Of a stretch of DNA of 47,043 nucleotides, positions 10,804-28,686 are shown in pieces. Source of the DNA: a bacterium. Lineage in GTDB: Bacteria; Margulisbacteria; Marinamargulisbacteria; JAHFDA01. The translations under genes were made by a program, and so were the position numbers. Numbering within the stretch: position 1 is the stretch's first letter; each line of letters starts with the position of its first letter. The DNA is taken from positions 1 to 47,043 of the forward strand of contig JAHFDA010000017.1 in assembly GCA_023249225.1 (NCBI GenBank), written 5' to 3'. The notes under the pieces were generated by a model. The model saw only the letters and a list, made by a program, of their open reading frames with translations, was not told where the DNA came from and did not search any database.

Positions 10804-11916
10804 ATGCCTGCAGACTTGTTTTTGCGCCGTTGTGCCTTGGATGAGGGGCAGCTGATCCGCCGTCCGCACGTATTTCACGGGCGTCTGCCGGCGGGCGTGG
10901 CATATCCGCTGCGGCATGATGTGAACAGCGTAGAGGGCGTGGAGCCCTCGGCCCGCATTTTGCGCAGCGACTTGTTGCAGGTGCACCACGAACATTACCT
11001 CGACCGCCTGTGGCGGGGAGAACTCTCGTCGTATCACCGCTTGCTGGTGGGCAAATACGGCCTGCGCTTTGAGGCCGAACACAAGCTGGCGGTCATGGCG
11101 GCCGGATTTGAAGCGCTGCGCCATGCAGTGCGTTCCAGCGGTTTTGCCTTTAGTCTTACGGGCGGCATGCACCACGCTTTTGCAGGCCATGCCGAAGGTT
11201 ACTGCTTTGTAAACGACGTGGCAGTCATTATCGCCAAGGGGCGCAGGGAACTTGGATTGCGGCGCTTTTTGGTGATCGACCTCGACGCCCACCAAGGCAA
11301 CGGCACCGCGCATATTTTTCGGAATGATCCCGATGTATTTACGTTTTCGATGCATGTACGCAAAGCGGGCACGTATCCCTTTGCCCATACGCCACAGTTG
11401 CTGCGCACATTGCGAAACGAGAACCTTTTGCGGAGCATTCTCTTTAACGCCAAACTGGAAGCCCAGGAGGAATCCGCCGCAGAAGCGCTGGCCGAGCACG
11501 ATGAAACCATTCTGAAACAATATTTTCAAAGCCAACCCCAAGTCACGCAGACACTCGCAAACGCCTTGGATATCATAGCCAACGATGTGGCAGAACTCTC
11601 CAGCGTTTTTGTTCCGTCCGCCAGCCGCTGTGACCTGCATCTGCCACCGACCATGTCCGGACGATATTACGTCAATCTGCTGAATCAAAACCTAAAATCT
11701 ATTTTTACGACGCAGCCGGCCTTTGACGCTGCCATTTACCTGTGCGGCAGCGATGTTATGGAGGAGTTTGGCTACGGTTTGGACGTTCTGGCCGCGCGTG
11801 AGCAAACCCTGTATGCCTTGCTAAGGCAAATGAATATTCCCTACACCGTGATTTTTGCCGGCGGTTACGGACCGGAAGCCCACGCCGCCTTTCGCCAAGC
11901 CTTGCTTTTACATTAA
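10804..11916 (+). CDS. Histone deacetylase superfamily (acetoin utilisation/APAH-type) hydrolase
   Basis: A zinc-dependent amidohydrolase that in bacteria deacetylates polyamines, small amides or proteins. The catalytic set is complete: tandem His123-His124 in GGMHHA, the Zn ligands Asp161 and His163 in DLDAHQGNG, the third ligand Asp317 in GSD, and the catalytic Tyr of the terminal GGY motif. Core signatures HAEGYCFVND and FSMH are clear. The unusual part is about 80 extra helical, Gln/Glu-rich residues (roughly 192-275) between FSMH...TYPF and the CDLHLPPT strand, which is normally a short loop next to the active-site rim. The real substrate is unknown. The downstream FNR gene is separated by about 100 bp. 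Confidence 0.88.
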   Translation: MPADLFLRRCALDEGQLIRRPHVFHGRLPAGVAYPLRHDVNSVEGVEPSARILRSDLLQVHHEHYLDRLWRGELSSYHRLLVGKYGLRFEAEHKLAVMAAGFEALRHAVRSSGFAFSLTGGMHHAFAGHAEGYCFVNDVAVIIAKGRRELGLRRFLVIDLDAHQGNGTAHIFRNDPDVFTFSMHVRKAGTYPFAHTPQLLRTLRNENLLRSILFNAKLEAQEESAAEALAEHDETILKQYFQSQPQVTQTLANALDIIANDVAELSSVFVPSASRCDLHLPPTMSGRYYVNLLNQNLKSIFTTQPAFDAAIYLCGSDVMEEFGYGLDVLAAREQTLYALLRQMNIPYTVIFAGGYGPEAHAAFRQALLLH

Positions 11917-18041: not shown

Positions 18042-18145
18042 CACTTTCAAATATTTCGTAACTATTCAGCCCTACAATATTTCAAGATGACTCCGGAGTA
18101 TCGCTCCAGGTAGACTTCCAATTTTCTCCAAGAAAACAACACTAA

Positions 18146-18174
18146 TTGAATCTTGTAATACAACATGCTATTTT
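18146..18174 (+). promoter_or_regulatory. Sigma-70-like promoter for the parA-CBM48 operon
   Basis: TTGAAT (18146-18151) and TATTTT (18169-18174) are separated by exactly 17 bp, each matching 4 of 6 consensus positions. This would give a 5' leader of about 48 nt before ATG 18229. Confidence 0.45.
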
Positions 18175-18190
18175 TGTTTTAGTACAACAT
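18153..18190. promoter_or_regulatory. Possible operator: TTGTA-A-TACAA and repeated TACAACAT
   Basis: Inside the promoter spacer lies the perfect inverted repeat TTGTAATACAA (18153-18163). TACAACAT occurs at 18159-18166 and again at 18183-18190, 24 bp apart, flanking the -10 and start site. The arrangement suits an autorepressor, but no regulator is identified. Confidence 0.35.
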
Positions 18191-18228
18191 TCAATTTTAC
18201 TGCCAATACAATAAAAATGGAGGGATTC

Positions 18229-19293
18229 ATGGGAATTTTAGCAGTCATTAATCAAAAGGGCGGCTGCGGAAAGACCACCACCGCCATTAACTTGGCGGCT
18301 GCTCTTGCGTCCACACGCAAACGCATTTTACTGGTGGATCTCGATCCACAAGGCCATTGTGGTCTGGGTCTGGGTGTACACAAAGATCATCTCGAATATT
18401 CAATGGCCGATGTCATGGACAAGCGCATTGAACTTAAAAAAATTATCCGCAAAGTTGACCAGCACTTTTATCTGGCACCGGCCAACATTTATCTGGCTGG
18501 TTTCGAGCACCGCTTTTCGGGTCAGTCCGAACGCGAGAGCCAGCTTAAACAACGCCTGGATCCCTATATCAAAGAGTATGACTTTATTATCATTGATTGT
18601 CCGCCCAACTTAGGCTTGCTAACCATCAACGCCATGGTTGCCAGCCAAGCCATGATCGTTCCCCTTGAACTTAGCGCCTTTAGCTTAGACGGTGTCGCAC
18701 GTTTGCAACACATTGTGGATTTCTTAAGCAAGCACTTGGAATTTAAGAGCGAACATCGTCTGCTCGTCACCATGGACGACCGCAGCCGCCTGTCAAAGAA
18801 ACTGATCCGTCAGCTTGAAGTGGATTTTCCGAACAAGCTCTTGAGAAGCACCATTCGTAAAAATGTCAGCCTTAAGGAAGCTGCCCTGCAAGGCCAACAT
18901 GTGCTGGCTTACGATCCCGTTTCATTTGGCGCACGCGACCATCAGGCCCTGGCGCACGAAGTGCTTGATTGGCAATCCTATCCGGCCCTTCCCAAGCTCA
19001 CACAGGTCCATACACCCCCAGTGGAATTTCGTGAAATCTGCCTTAAGTTTTATGATCCCCGCGCCCAGCAGGTTAAAGTGGCCGGCGACTTTAACAATTG
19101 GAATGCCAGTCACGCTTATCAGCTGATGAGCCTGCAAAATGGGCATTTTGCCACCGTCATCCCCTTAAAACACGGCAGCTACCGTTACCGCTTTATCGTG
19201 GATGGACAATGGATCGAGGATCCCAGCAATCCACACAAAGCCGTCAATACCTACGGAAGCTTTGATTCGATCCTGACGGTAAATACGCCGTGA
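18229..19293 (+). CDS. ParA-family ATPase fused to an AMPK-beta-type glycogen-binding (CBM48) domain
   Basis: The first 250 or so residues are a ParA/Soj ATPase that should dimerise on ATP and bind DNA nonspecifically. They show the deviant Walker A KGGCGKTT (residues 10-17, signature Lys10), VDLDPQG, and Walker B IIIDCPP (121-126). After a Pro-rich linker, residues 268-354 form an AMPK-beta/CBM48 module: VAGDFNNWN, GSYRYRF, DGQWIEDPSNP and a terminal GSFDSILTV strand. The two sugar-stacking tryptophans of AMPK-beta are present (Trp291, Trp328), its Lys is replaced by Arg321, and its Asn by Asp/Ser. ATG 18229 was chosen because GGAGGG lies just before it and the protein then begins MGILAVINQ. 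No ParB or parS is seen nearby. The stop overlaps the next gene (GTGA). Confidence 0.93.
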   Translation: MGILAVINQKGGCGKTTTAINLAAALASTRKRILLVDLDPQGHCGLGLGVHKDHLEYSMADVMDKRIELKKIIRKVDQHFYLAPANIYLAGFEHRFSGQSERESQLKQRLDPYIKEYDFIIIDCPPNLGLLTINAMVASQAMIVPLELSAFSLDGVARLQHIVDFLSKHLEFKSEHRLLVTMDDRSRLSKKLIRQLEVDFPNKLLRSTIRKNVSLKEAALQGQHVLAYDPVSFGARDHQALAHEVLDWQSYPALPKLTQVHTPPVEFREICLKFYDPRAQQVKVAGDFNNWNASHAYQLMSLQNGHFATVIPLKHGSYRYRFIVDGQWIEDPSNPHKAVNTYGSFDSILTVNTP

Positions 19294-20171
19294 ATGCGGT
19301 CGCCCAGCAAAAGCTTGAAAAGCTTTTTTCTTTTTTCCTAACACGCAATCAGGAACAGGAGCGTGACCGCCTGGCATTTGAAAACGGTGACGCTCAAGTC
19401 ATCAAAAATCCTTTTCATGAGTTGTGCGATCCCGAACTTTTTTACGCCGGAAGCCAGCATGCCCGGATATTTGAAAGCCTGCGCCAGTGCTGCCTTGCGG
19501 GCCTGTCGCTGGGATCCGTCACCGGAGAAGTAGGCAGCGGAAAATCAATGCTCTGCCAGATGCTGCGCTGCCACCTAGACCCGGGCCGCATCACTCAATC
19601 CTACGTACTCGGGTTGTCGCGTATGAGTCCGGCTGCGTTTTTAAAAGCCGTGCTGCACGGGGTAGGTTACCGCATCCAAATTGTTGAAAAACGTTATGCG
19701 GCCAGCGATCTGTTCCATTTATTGGGCGAATACTGCCGGCAGTTACAAGCTTCGGAACAACGCCTGGTGATACTGATTGACGAAGCCCACCTGCTTTCAG
19801 CCGAAGCGCTGAAAGTGGTTAAAAGCATCAGTTGCCTAGAAAACCCACAGGACAAGTTGGCCAGCTGCCTTTTATTTGGCGAGCCTAATTTAAACGAACG
19901 CCTGGAACATGAAGTGTTTGCCTCACTCAAAAGCCGCTTTTACGTCCGTGAACACATAGACCCCTTGAGCATGGAGGAAACCCGCGCTTATATCACCCAC
20001 CGGCTGCATGCAGCCGGGTACCCATCCAATACTTTGATGGAAAGCGAATTACAGATGATTGCAGAGGAAAGTTGTGGCAACTGCCGGGACATTAACAAGC
20101 TGGCGTATGAAAGATTTAGGCTGCGTTATGCACCCCATCAGCCGTTTATAAATAGGGACGGGTTAGAATGA
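19290..20171 (+). CDS. ExeA/TniB-type AAA+ ATPase
   Basis: A 293-residue AAA+ ATPase of the ExeA/GspA class, with an N-terminal helical segment, the FHELCDPELFY entry motif typical of ExeA, Walker A GEVGSGKS (79-86), Walker B LVILIDEAH (159-167), a sensor-like LLFGEPNLN and a C-terminal lid helix ending NCRDINKLA. It lacks the membrane anchor and peptidoglycan-binding tail of ExeA. The GTG start overlaps the parA-CBM48 stop, so the two proteins are translationally coupled and probably work together. In related families such ATPases drive assembly or target loading of a partner. No secretin, pilus or transposase gene is present here, so those roles are not supported. Confidence 0.85.
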   Translation: MNAVAQQKLEKLFSFFLTRNQEQERDRLAFENGDAQVIKNPFHELCDPELFYAGSQHARIFESLRQCCLAGLSLGSVTGEVGSGKSMLCQMLRCHLDPGRITQSYVLGLSRMSPAAFLKAVLHGVGYRIQIVEKRYAASDLFHLLGEYCRQLQASEQRLVILIDEAHLLSAEALKVVKSISCLENPQDKLASCLLFGEPNLNERLEHEVFASLKSRFYVREHIDPLSMEETRAYITHRLHAAGYPSNTLMESELQMIAEESCGNCRDINKLAYERFRLRYAPHQPFINRDGLE

Positions 20172-20177
20172 TGTCCC

Positions 20178-20957
20178 GTGAGCACCCCATTACCGTCAAC
20201 ACTGCATCCTGGCCTGAAGCAAGACCCGTCAAAATTATCTAGCTTGACGCTGGGTTGTGTGCCCGAACAGCTTGGAAAAATGGCTTTGATTGTTCCCTTT
20301 TTAGGTTTGGAGTTGCTCAAACCACTTTTTACAAAAATCCAGCACGAATTTTGCGCCAAAGGTTTTTTTTCGGGTTTCACCGCTGCGCTCAATAATGTGC
20401 TTATCACTGTGCTGCGCAGTGGCATGGGCAGCGAGCGGGTCGTCGATGCCGCCCTGGCTTTACATGCCTGCGGCGTAGCACACATTGCCTTTGCGGGGAC
20501 TGCAGGAGCTTTGCATCCGGAGATACAACTGGGAGACCTTTGGATTCCCGATGCCTGCATCCAGGTAACGCTTGAGGACTTGCTTGAAAAAAATAACATT
20601 CAACTTAAAATGGAATTGAAACTGCCTCAAAACCTAACCCTGTTAAACCAATGGACTCCCTCTCCACACCGGGGCCTGCATGCGTCGCTTCCGTCTGTCC
20701 TGCTGCTTGATCAACACCGTGCCATGCAACTTAAAAACTTAAATGTCCAGGCGGTGGATCTTGAAGCGGCGCAGCTGGCTATGCTTGCCACCCATCTGGG
20801 ATTTAATCTAACCATTGCACTGACGGTTTCGGACCTGCCACTGACCCAGCCGTTGGGAAGCCTGACAGATGCTCAACGTAAACTTGTGTTGGATCAGCAC
20901 TTGCTGCATATCCGTGCAACGCTGGATGCCCTCATTCATGGGGAGTCTAGATCCTGA
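20178..20957 (+). CDS. Nucleoside phosphorylase/hydrolase (PNP/MTAN) superfamily protein
   Basis: A 259-residue member of the PNP-UDP fold family, which splits or phosphorolyses glycosidic bonds of nucleosides. Visible motifs are VLRSGMGSERVVDAA near 78-92, the Gly-rich FAGTAGAL (105-112) followed by QLGDLWIPD, the substrate-contact VDLE with Glu196, and VSD with Asp219, which is the catalytic Asp position in MTA/SAH nucleosidase. The first 30 residues and residues 125-165 are divergent, so the nucleoside is not assigned; futalosine or MTA/SAH-like substrates are possible. A GTG start lies 6 nt after the ATPase stop, placing it as the third gene of the ParA-CBM48 operon. Confidence 0.8.
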   Translation: MSTPLPSTLHPGLKQDPSKLSSLTLGCVPEQLGKMALIVPFLGLELLKPLFTKIQHEFCAKGFFSGFTAALNNVLITVLRSGMGSERVVDAALALHACGVAHIAFAGTAGALHPEIQLGDLWIPDACIQVTLEDLLEKNNIQLKMELKLPQNLTLLNQWTPSPHRGLHASLPSVLLLDQHRAMQLKNLNVQAVDLEAAQLAMLATHLGFNLTIALTVSDLPLTQPLGSLTDAQRKLVLDQHLLHIRATLDALIHGESRS

Positions 20958-27499: not shown

Positions 27500-27518
27500 G
27501 TTTGTTTAAAAAAATGGG

Positions 27519-27524
27519 TATAAT
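27519..27524 (+). promoter_or_regulatory. -10 hexamer for leaderless fic transcript
   Basis: A perfect TATAAT ends 7 nt before ATG 27532. There is no Shine-Dalgarno and no convincing -35, so activation through the upstream repeats is possible. Confidence 0.45.
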
Positions 27525-27531
27525 CAAGCTT

Positions 27532-28686
27532 ATGTACCCGCTCTTTCCCAGAAAAATAGCCCCCGAACTTGAAACCTTAATAAATACTTTTTTAAAGGAA
27601 AGCACGGCGCTATCCAACCATTTAAGCAAAGATCTTGTGTTTGCCATTTCTGAATTTCTGGTGGACATCAACAGCTTCTACACCAATGCCATGGAAGGTA
27701 ATCCAAGCAAGATCAAAGACATCGAGGCTGCGCTGAATAAGGAACTGCTGTCTGATCGTACGCTGCGCAACTATCAAATTGAGCACATCGTGCACATACA
27801 GGTGCAGCAGGAACTGCTGCGCCGTCTGGCAGGCGAACCAACACTAAACATTTGCTCGCCAGAATTTTTGGCGTGGATACACCGTTCGTTTTATGAGCGC
27901 TTGCCCGAAGAGATGCAAGTGGCGCTAACGCTTGGTGACAAAAAAATTCCGGTGCTGCCCGGACAGTTTCGCGATCGGGGTGCGCGCGTGGGTCGGCACG
28001 ATGCGCCTGCCACTGCCGCAGAAATAGAGCGCCTGCTGGCCGACTTTTCGGCGCAGCTGAATCCGGACGGGCTGCAAGGCATGCAAAAATTTGTGGGCCT
28101 GGCAGCGTCTCATCATCGCTTGCTTTGGATACATCCTTTTCGGGACGGCAATGGTCGCGTTGCGCGGCTTTTTACGCTGGCCTATTTTGTAAAATGCGGG
28201 GTCAACCCCCATTTGTGGTCATTTTCACGCGGCCTGGCGCGGCAGCGGCAAACCTTTGACCATTATCTGGATCTTGCGGACCAGCCACGGGCGGATGATC
28301 TCGATGGACGGGGGTCGCTGTCAGAAAAAACTCTAGAAGCCTTTTGCAAGTACTTTTTTGAAATCAGTCTGGATCAGGTGCGTTATATGGCCGGCTGTCT
28401 GGAATTGCCTCAGTTTCAGACCCTGTATCAGCGCTATCTGCGCATCCTGCAGGCCGAAAAAAAGATCTCTGCCGGAGCCTATGCTGTGATGTGCCTGTTG
28501 ATAAAACTTGGTCGGCTGCCCAAGACAGATGTGCAACGAATCTGTGGCGTAAAGGATCGCCGTGCCTCGCAGCTGATCAAGCAGCTGGTGGCTGAAAAGC
28601 TGGTTTATGACGATGTGGCGCGCAGCGCCTTGCGTTTGCGTCTGACCTCGGATGCGGCGGCTATTGTTTTTCCGGGTTTGGTGTAG
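27532..28686 (+). CDS. Fic-family adenylyltransferase, class II
   Basis: A 384-residue Fic protein that transfers AMP (or another NMP) to a target hydroxyl. Counting from the first in-frame codon at 27502, the catalytic motif HPFRDGNGRVAR spans residues 211-222 and is complete, and the N-terminal inhibitory helix TNAMEGN (61-67, matching [S/T]xxxE[G/N]) makes it class II, self-inhibited. A C-terminal winged-helix-like region (LPKTDVQRICGVKDRRASQL) suggests DNA binding or autoregulation. I chose ATG 27532, 7 nt after TATAAT; ATG 27514 is possible. No separate antitoxin gene is needed. Confidence 0.92.
   Translation: MYPLFPRKIAPELETLINTFLKESTALSNHLSKDLVFAISEFLVDINSFYTNAMEGNPSKIKDIEAALNKELLSDRTLRNYQIEHIVHIQVQQELLRRLAGEPTLNICSPEFLAWIHRSFYERLPEEMQVALTLGDKKIPVLPGQFRDRGARVGRHDAPATAAEIERLLADFSAQLNPDGLQGMQKFVGLAASHHRLLWIHPFRDGNGRVARLFTLAYFVKCGVNPHLWSFSRGLARQRQTFDHYLDLADQPRADDLDGRGSLSEKTLEAFCKYFFEISLDQVRYMAGCLELPQFQTLYQRYLRILQAEKKISAGAYAVMCLLIKLGRLPKTDVQRICGVKDRRASQLIKQLVAEKLVYDDVARSALRLRLTSDAAAIVFPGLV

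Follow-up and report, generated by a model that had tools for sequence, protein, structure and literature searches.

Which cargo might be served by a ParA-type ATPase that carries a carbohydrate-binding module at its own C-terminus? The question is raised by the gene P0001 in a 47,043-nt stretch of contig JAHFDA010000017.1 (the whole stretch is referred to below as the window) from a bacterium of the Marinamargulisbacteria (assembly GCA_023249225.1, here G000). P0001 encodes a fusion of a ParA ATPase and a CBM48 domain of the AMPK-beta type, and is followed by the gene for an AAA+ ATPase, P0002. ATPases of the ParA/MinD family place DNA, carboxysomes, chemoreceptors, flagella and divisomes, and polyhydroxybutyrate (PHB) and polyphosphate granules have spacing proteins of their own. 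ParA/MinD positioning and CBM48 are each of a known kind. The best reading of the evidence presented here is that an alpha-glucan, most likely glycogen, is the target of the ParA protein and its partner, positioning being the function that we infer.

Domain architecture of P0001

The reading frame of P0001 is intact, with no stop codon or frameshift, and begins at an ATG (18229) preceded by GGAGGG; an alternative start lies at 18217. Residues 3-170 match Pfam AAA_31 (E 1.4e-51). The ParA domain contains the Walker A' box NQKGGCGKTT with its signature Lys, a DLDPQG motif and basic residues around positions 185-215, and K10, K15, T16, D39, P40 and Q41 were invariant when P0001 was aligned with its homologues. 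The nearest solved structures were 8ray (E 7.5e-50) and H. pylori Soj (E 6.2e-41). In Foldseek the ParA half matched Soj with a template modelling score of 0.87-0.93, depending on the target, and a root-mean-square deviation of 1.6-1.7, and the domain could be aligned with Soj throughout. P0001 is thereby a member of the ParA/MinD (deviant Walker A) ATPases.

The C-terminal part scored 53.5 bits against AMPK1_CBM (PF16561, residues 278-352; cut-off 26.8) and 34.3 bits against CBM_48 (cut-off 22.4), and is the sole AMPK1_CBM match in the 2.83-Mb genome. It lies nearest to AMPK beta subunits (2f15, E 7e-11), and the sugar-stacking tryptophans W100 and W133 of AMPK are represented by W291 and W328. 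By its scores and these tryptophans it is an AMPK1_CBM/CBM48 domain, joined here to a bacterial ParA instead of the kinase-complex sequences of AMPK beta. The AlphaFold prediction, made on 11 homologues (mean predicted local distance difference test score, pLDDT, of 84), consisted of a confident ParA fold, an unstructured linker at residues 250-264 and a confident beta domain at residues 268-351. A PDB structure search with P0001 gave ParA proteins only among the matches listed; the identity of the CBM is based on sequence. The description of P0001 in the initial annotation, as a complete ParA followed by a CBM48 with both tryptophans, was borne out. Its start at 18146 was misplaced, as that stretch belongs to a non-coding upstream inverted repeat. 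Glycogen binding by AMPK beta depends on each of several contact residues, W100 and W133 among them (PMC2642990), and the homology makes it probable that P0001 binds a glucan.

Distribution and paralogues of the fusion

In a search of 74 genomes from the phylum of G000, the fusion was found in G000 itself and in one other family, f18, where seven of eight sampled genomes carry it, often as two paralogues, groups A and B. Beyond the phylum, a contig scan queried with six short P0001 peptides returned full-length fusions from Zixibacteria (L047, L048), an unclassified bacterium (L049), an Omnitrophota metagenome-assembled genome (MAG; L050) and Planctomycetota including Phycisphaerae (L051-L057). 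Given such a query, the real spread is probably wider. The idea that the architecture is singular to this genome was rejected, and since the full-length fusion is kept in more than 20 other loci, its chance origin is ruled out. The combination of domains is probably already visible in domain databases. Stand-alone CBM48 proteins of about 90-100 aa from Deltaproteobacteria MAGs (L058-L061, L063), 44-46% identical to the CBM of P0001, rank among its closest non-fusion matches.

The equivalents of W100 and W133 are kept in P0001 and in the Zixibacteria, Planctomycetota and group-B proteins, and both are invariant across P0001, Zixibacteria, Omnitrophota and Planctomycetota despite the large distances. 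Within f18, a third ParA paralogue group (C) has a degenerate CBM48 remnant at its C-terminus (L043:8275-9303, L044:8278-9345), and the group-B modules of G033 and G027 lack the N150 stretch. The group-B module of G036, which stands beside glucan genes, is intact; that of G039 is an exception, being intact although the glucan genes are absent. The f18 pattern fits an ancestral glucan system that is being eroded, and another ligand is possible there.

A maximum-likelihood tree built from 48 ParA domains separated the fusion ParAs, together with one degenerate paralogue group, from all 23 Soj-type controls with a support of 100/100. As plasmid ParA, McdA and MinD outgroups were left out of the tree, a single origin of the fusion is consistent with the data, yet unproven.

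The probable partner gene and its N-terminal motif

The GTGA overlap at 19290-19293 was confirmed, P0002 starting within the stop codon of P0001. Pfam assigns P0002 to AAA_22 (E 2.1e-18), and it is of the same AAA+ type as the ExeA-like and XrtA/PEP-CTERM ATPases. It differs from these in scoring below the cut-off of its closest NCBIfam model (TIGR03015, 114.2 bits versus 324.5) and in bearing an N-terminal partner motif, and no XrtA or type II secretion context was seen. A single-copy homologue of P0002, 31-35% identical, is present in each f18 genome sampled apart from G030, which has a group-A and no group-B fusion.

The expected pairing with ExeA-type genes is kept in the group-B relatives, and other partner folds are found elsewhere. 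The Zixibacteria partner resembles FlhG/FleN (E 1.2e-18 to 4rz2 over residues 40-308), with a Walker A region that lacks the KGG signature, and the partners in L049 and Planctomycetota had no Pfam match. Conservation of the gene after the fusion concerns its role and not its fold. Its product has an FlhG/MinD-like or unrecognised fold in other phyla, so that the AAA+ domain is not what the systems share and was rejected as an essential remodeller. What stands of the initial proposal, in which the AAA+ protein acts as remodeller or activator in place of ParB, is that the neighbour takes the place of ParB, as indicated by the shared motif.

This motif, roughly LEDISHLFLS, lies near the start of AAA+ and other partners alike. 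It reads LEDISHLFLS in the Zixibacteria partner, LREISHFFLS in L049, LSEISHLFLS, LDALADLFLT and IDELADLYLT in Planctomycetota, IEDFSHLFLS, IEDFSSLFLS and LEDFADIFIS in f18, and LEKLFSFFLT in P0002. A matrix trained on non-AAA+ partners only and run on the first 90 residues of 2725 open reading frames (ORFs) placed all five AAA+ partners inside the top ten untrained ORFs. Since the motif had first been spotted by eye on both partner types, this test is supporting rather than blind, and the four f18 copies in it are not independent. A ten-row profile that included P0002 was searched over 18 whole genomes. One strong match (E 2e-3 or better) was obtained in 14 of them, always the partner gene, and the next best match anywhere had an E value of 0.03. 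P0002, with its own row in the profile, was the best match in G000 (E 4.0e-6). Two matches fell meaningfully outside the training rows: a second Zixibacteria locus, G074:C50 (E 3.4e-6), which has the fusion, the partner and the same third gene, and G042:C116, which is close to the trained f18 rows. The contig of G045 ends ahead of the motif position.

Partners of ParA/MinD proteins contact the ATPase through a charged N-terminal stretch, the remainder serving the cargo (PMC10241942), and a conserved N-terminal peptide of ParB, made up of aliphatic and positive residues, stimulates ParA on its own (PMC12462528). FlhG likewise stimulates FlhF, a nucleotide-dependent dimer, through an N-terminal enhancer helix (PMC12826062). 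Because published partners act on ParA/MinD proteins through N-terminal stretches, the motif suggests a ParA partner, and by analogy it may bind the ParA-CBM48 protein. The Zixibacteria partners start with KRLGKGLEDISHLFLS, similar in look to the start of the G000 ParB (GLGRGLDAII). They match FlhG over its length, and their short N-terminal motif could stimulate another NTPase; they differ from FlhG/FleN in that LEDISHLFLS replaces DQAxxLR and the KGG signature is missing, and no flagellar context was present in the loci read. It is very likely that the ParA-CBM48 protein and its partner form a functional pair.

Comparison with known positioning and partition systems

A second ParA of G000, encoded on contig C36, is followed by the ParB with this usual N-terminus; because the canonical pair sits there, P0001 comes in addition to it. 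Beside P0001 lies the gene of the AAA_22 protein, not one for a ParB. A single parS-like site was found in the window, with two mismatches, 9 kb off and inside another gene; 0.15 such sites are expected, and 15 of 100 shuffles had as many. A canonical ParABS system was rejected in the absence of a ParB or a convincing parS at the locus. The ParA domain of P0001 is 35-41% identical to Soj/ParA of ParABS and shares with it the fold, the Walker A' box and an adjoining partner with an N-terminal motif. The fusion differs in its added CBM48, in the lack of ParB and parS, in the AAA+ or FlhG-like body of the partner and in forming a separate clade. A plasmid or phage partition system was rejected as well, as none of 72,556 plasmid records had a place covering 80% of the P0001 query and the viral matches, led by a 249-aa protein, are confined to the ParA part.

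The McdAB system of carboxysome positioning pairs an ATPase with a partner whose N-terminal stretch contacts the ATPase (PMC10241942). The P0002 motif is a putative counterpart of that stretch, and a non-DNA cargo is proposed here for P0001 too. Unlike McdA, to which it is about 23% identical by structure alignment, P0001 has the cargo-binding domain fused to the ATPase, and microcompartment genes are absent. Storage-granule spacing along the nucleoid, as proposed here, would be shared with the PHB and polyphosphate systems, whereas these rely on DNA-binding granule proteins (PhaM, PhaF, AlgP) and not on ParA.

Alpha-glucan genes in genomes carrying the fusion

Glucan genes were found next to the fusion in two lineages. 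The f18 genome G036 (100% complete) has, directly downstream of its group-B fusion and on the same strand, genes for a GT4/GT5-type synthase and a GH57 protein; a GT2 gene comes next, and the AAA+ partner lies farther on. Taken from stop to stop, the ORFs of fusion, synthase and GH57 protein are at first 34 nt apart and then overlap by 31 nt. The synthase is the only GT5-family match of this genome and the GH57 protein its only GH57 match. In the Zixibacteria genome G075, the fusion and partner genes precede a 208-aa gene, behind which lies a GH57 branching enzyme with a BE_C domain that scored 544 bits against the Thermococcales branching enzyme model. The conserved gene of about 208 aa between partner and branching enzyme (L048:7792-8415; L201:2-760) has no Pfam match. 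A branching enzyme of G074, 79% identical to that of G075, follows a copy of this gene at a contig start; as the copy differs slightly from the one on C50, the link in G074 is one of synteny across contigs.

G000 itself has a full glycogen operon (G000:C101:1-11932; L202), comprising three GH57 genes, including those for a branching enzyme and a 4-alpha-glucanotransferase, a GalT-like gene, DUF4912, a nucleotidyltransferase-PGM fusion and glgA (452 bits; cut-off 328), as well as a GT35 phosphorylase and a GH13 enzyme. With this set of genes the organism of the window is expected to make glycogen. By rough reckoning, the chance of the G036 placement alone is about 0.3% and that of the Zixibacteria placement about 1%, which, with a dozen loci inspected, is suggestive and not decisive.

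Several observations weigh against a glycogen cargo or against a common partner mechanism. The CBM48 of P0001 has R for AMPK K126 and D for N150, and the group-A paralogues have W133 replaced by Y or H and both K126 and N150 by Q. The G036 glycosyltransferase scores best against glgA_Coryne and falls below every NCBIfam glycogen-synthase cut-off, so that glucan synthesis is likely there, not certain. The glycogen operon of G000 lies on a separate contig from the fusion, and no glycogen gene adjoins the fusion in the Planctomycetota loci. GT5, GH57, GT35 and GH13 matches are all missing from G027 (95% complete, two fusions), G039 (89%, two fusions) and G045 (73%), and G033 has a GT5 match only. 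Finally, G030, G077 and G083 carry the fusion yet gave no strong match to the motif profile.

Glycogen was rejected as the universal cargo, because fusion carriers of f18 lack the four glycogen enzyme families; the glucan link of the initial proposal is supported by the synteny in G036 and Zixibacteria. The anticipated co-occurrence with glg genes was likewise found in part, since glycogen enzyme families are present in the G000, Zixibacteria and Planctomycetota carriers and synthesis genes do not accompany the fusion in all carriers.

Proposed mechanism and alternative functions

P0001 and P0002 may well constitute a chromosomal ParA/MinD-type system that positions or partitions glycogen or its synthesis sites, although we regard this assignment as tentative. 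P0001 would dimerise on ATP and bind a matrix, as its family suggests, most likely the nucleoid as Soj does. The C-terminal CBM48, on its flexible tether, would grip glycogen or a glucan-making complex, as homology, the conserved aromatics and synteny suggest, and the cargo adaptor would then reside on the ATPase and not on the partner. The N-terminal peptides of ParB, MinE and McdB act on their ATPases by docking and triggering hydrolysis. The conserved motif LEKLFSFFLT of P0002 is predicted to dock on the ParA dimer in the same manner, triggering ATP hydrolysis and release, and the partner body (AAA+ in P0002, FlhG/MinD-like elsewhere) could give a second localisation or energy input. The outcome would be glycogen granules, or their synthesis sites, that are evenly spaced or partitioned.

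The synteny with glucan enzymes would fit equally well with a glucan-responsive switch, in which the CBM48 senses glycogen and alters the ATP cycle of ParA, and the protein controls its partner or the adjacent glucan enzymes with no nucleoid gradient. The AMPK counterpart of the domain acts as a regulatory sensor of glycogen besides being an anchor (PMC2642990), and the stimulation of a nucleotide-dependent dimer by the FlhG enhancer helix (PMC12826062) offers a precedent, the Zixibacteria partner being FlhG/FleN-like. We nevertheless consider such a switch unlikely, given that the partner motif resembles the ParA-activating peptides of positioning-system partners and that Soj, the nearest match to the ParA half, is a ParA that binds the nucleoid.

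Still less probable is a BcsQ-like control of an exopolysaccharide or envelope-glycan machine, with the CBM48 bound to nascent glucan or to the synthase and the ParA/AAA+ pair localising or gating it. This would account for the fusions where glycogen enzymes are absent. GT2 genes do occur near group-B fusions and, in the window, 3 kb from P0002; the best model for P0002 is the XrtA/PEP-CTERM ATPase, P0001 scores above the Pfam BcsQ cut-off, and a small SLBB-domain protein with a signal-like start, encoded directly upstream of the Zixibacteria fusion in L047 (L047:2130-2606), hints at polysaccharide export. However, P0001 reaches only 72.2 bits against the NCBIfam BcsQ model (TIGR03371, cut-off 157.85), the TIGR03015 score of P0002 is also far below its cut-off, and a scan of the neighbours revealed no bcs, export, Wzx/Wzy or XrtA genes. 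Moreover, the known occurrences of CBM48/AMPK1_CBM are in alpha-glucan proteins, the type to which the linked enzymes also belong.

The least probable alternative is that the beta domain has lost sugar binding and serves as a protein-protein or dimerisation module of a ParA with an ordinary role such as DNA or divisome positioning: the group-A substitutions, the CBM remnant of group C, the ParA part kept in both and the persistence of fusions in genomes without glycogen genes would suit it, but tryptophans invariant over such distances are unexpected for a decayed site, and P0001 has neither an adjoining ParB nor a convincing parS in the window.

Other features of the locus

The coordinates of the features are collected in Table 1. 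The arms of the leader inverted repeat are 86% complementary and 9 nt apart, and neither matches elsewhere in the genome. As a single strand the repeat folds only weakly better than shuffles (z -1.27); it is a candidate private operator of P0001. P0003 was correctly recognised as a nucleosidase-family gene (PNP_UDP_1). It is not conserved beside the ParA-CBM48/partner pair, no homologue being present in any related fusion locus, and was rejected as a component; although on the same strand, it probably lies outside the system. PADLOC models of anti-phage defence gave no match, and a defence-island reading was rejected for that reason. The window also encodes a Hist_deacetyl-family protein (10804-11916; Pfam, E 4.4e-37) and a Fic/DOC-family protein (27502-28686; Pfam, E 5.1e-15).

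Table 1. Positions in the window of the fusion gene, its neighbours and their domains
Feature	Position	Strand	Size or basis
22-nt inverted repeat, candidate operon operator	18144..18196		arms 18144-18165 and 18175-18196
P0001, ParA-CBM48 fusion	18229..19293	+	354 aa; Pfam, AlphaFold, homologues
ParA ATPase domain of P0001 (residues 1-247)	18229..18969	+	Pfam AAA_31, structure matches, invariant residues
Flexible linker of P0001 (residues 248-267)	18970..19029	+	pLDDT <50 at residues 250-264
AMPK-beta-type CBM48 of P0001 (residues 268-352)	19030..19284	+	Pfam, AMPK beta matches, residue alignment
P0002, ExeA-like AAA+ ATPase, partner candidate	19290..20171	+	293 aa
N-terminal partner motif LEKLFSFFLT of P0002	19314..19343	+	motif profile, E 4.0e-6
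AAA_22 domain of P0002 (residues 74-205)	19509..19904	+	Pfam
P0003, PNP_UDP_1 nucleosidase/phosphorylase-family protein	20178..20957	+	Pfam

Significance

A literature search, outside which most subscription journals fell, yielded no description of a ParA with CBM48 or of a ParA-type glycogen system, and an earlier notice is possible. Glycogen is not mentioned in a 2025 review of organelle positioning (PMC13052382). The fusions might represent a widespread, undescribed ParA class that carries its cargo-binding CBM48 on the ATPase, employs unrelated partners made interchangeable by one N-terminal ParA-activating motif and positions or partitions glycogen, a generalisation that we put forward with reservation. 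The partner motif provides a handle for finding more such systems, and its occurrence on unrelated folds constitutes a separate, testable prediction on the recruitment of activators by ParA-type ATPases. No glycogen-positioning machinery was found in the literature searched, and a ParA with a built-in glucan-binding domain across phyla would make the question of how glycogen is positioned directly testable.

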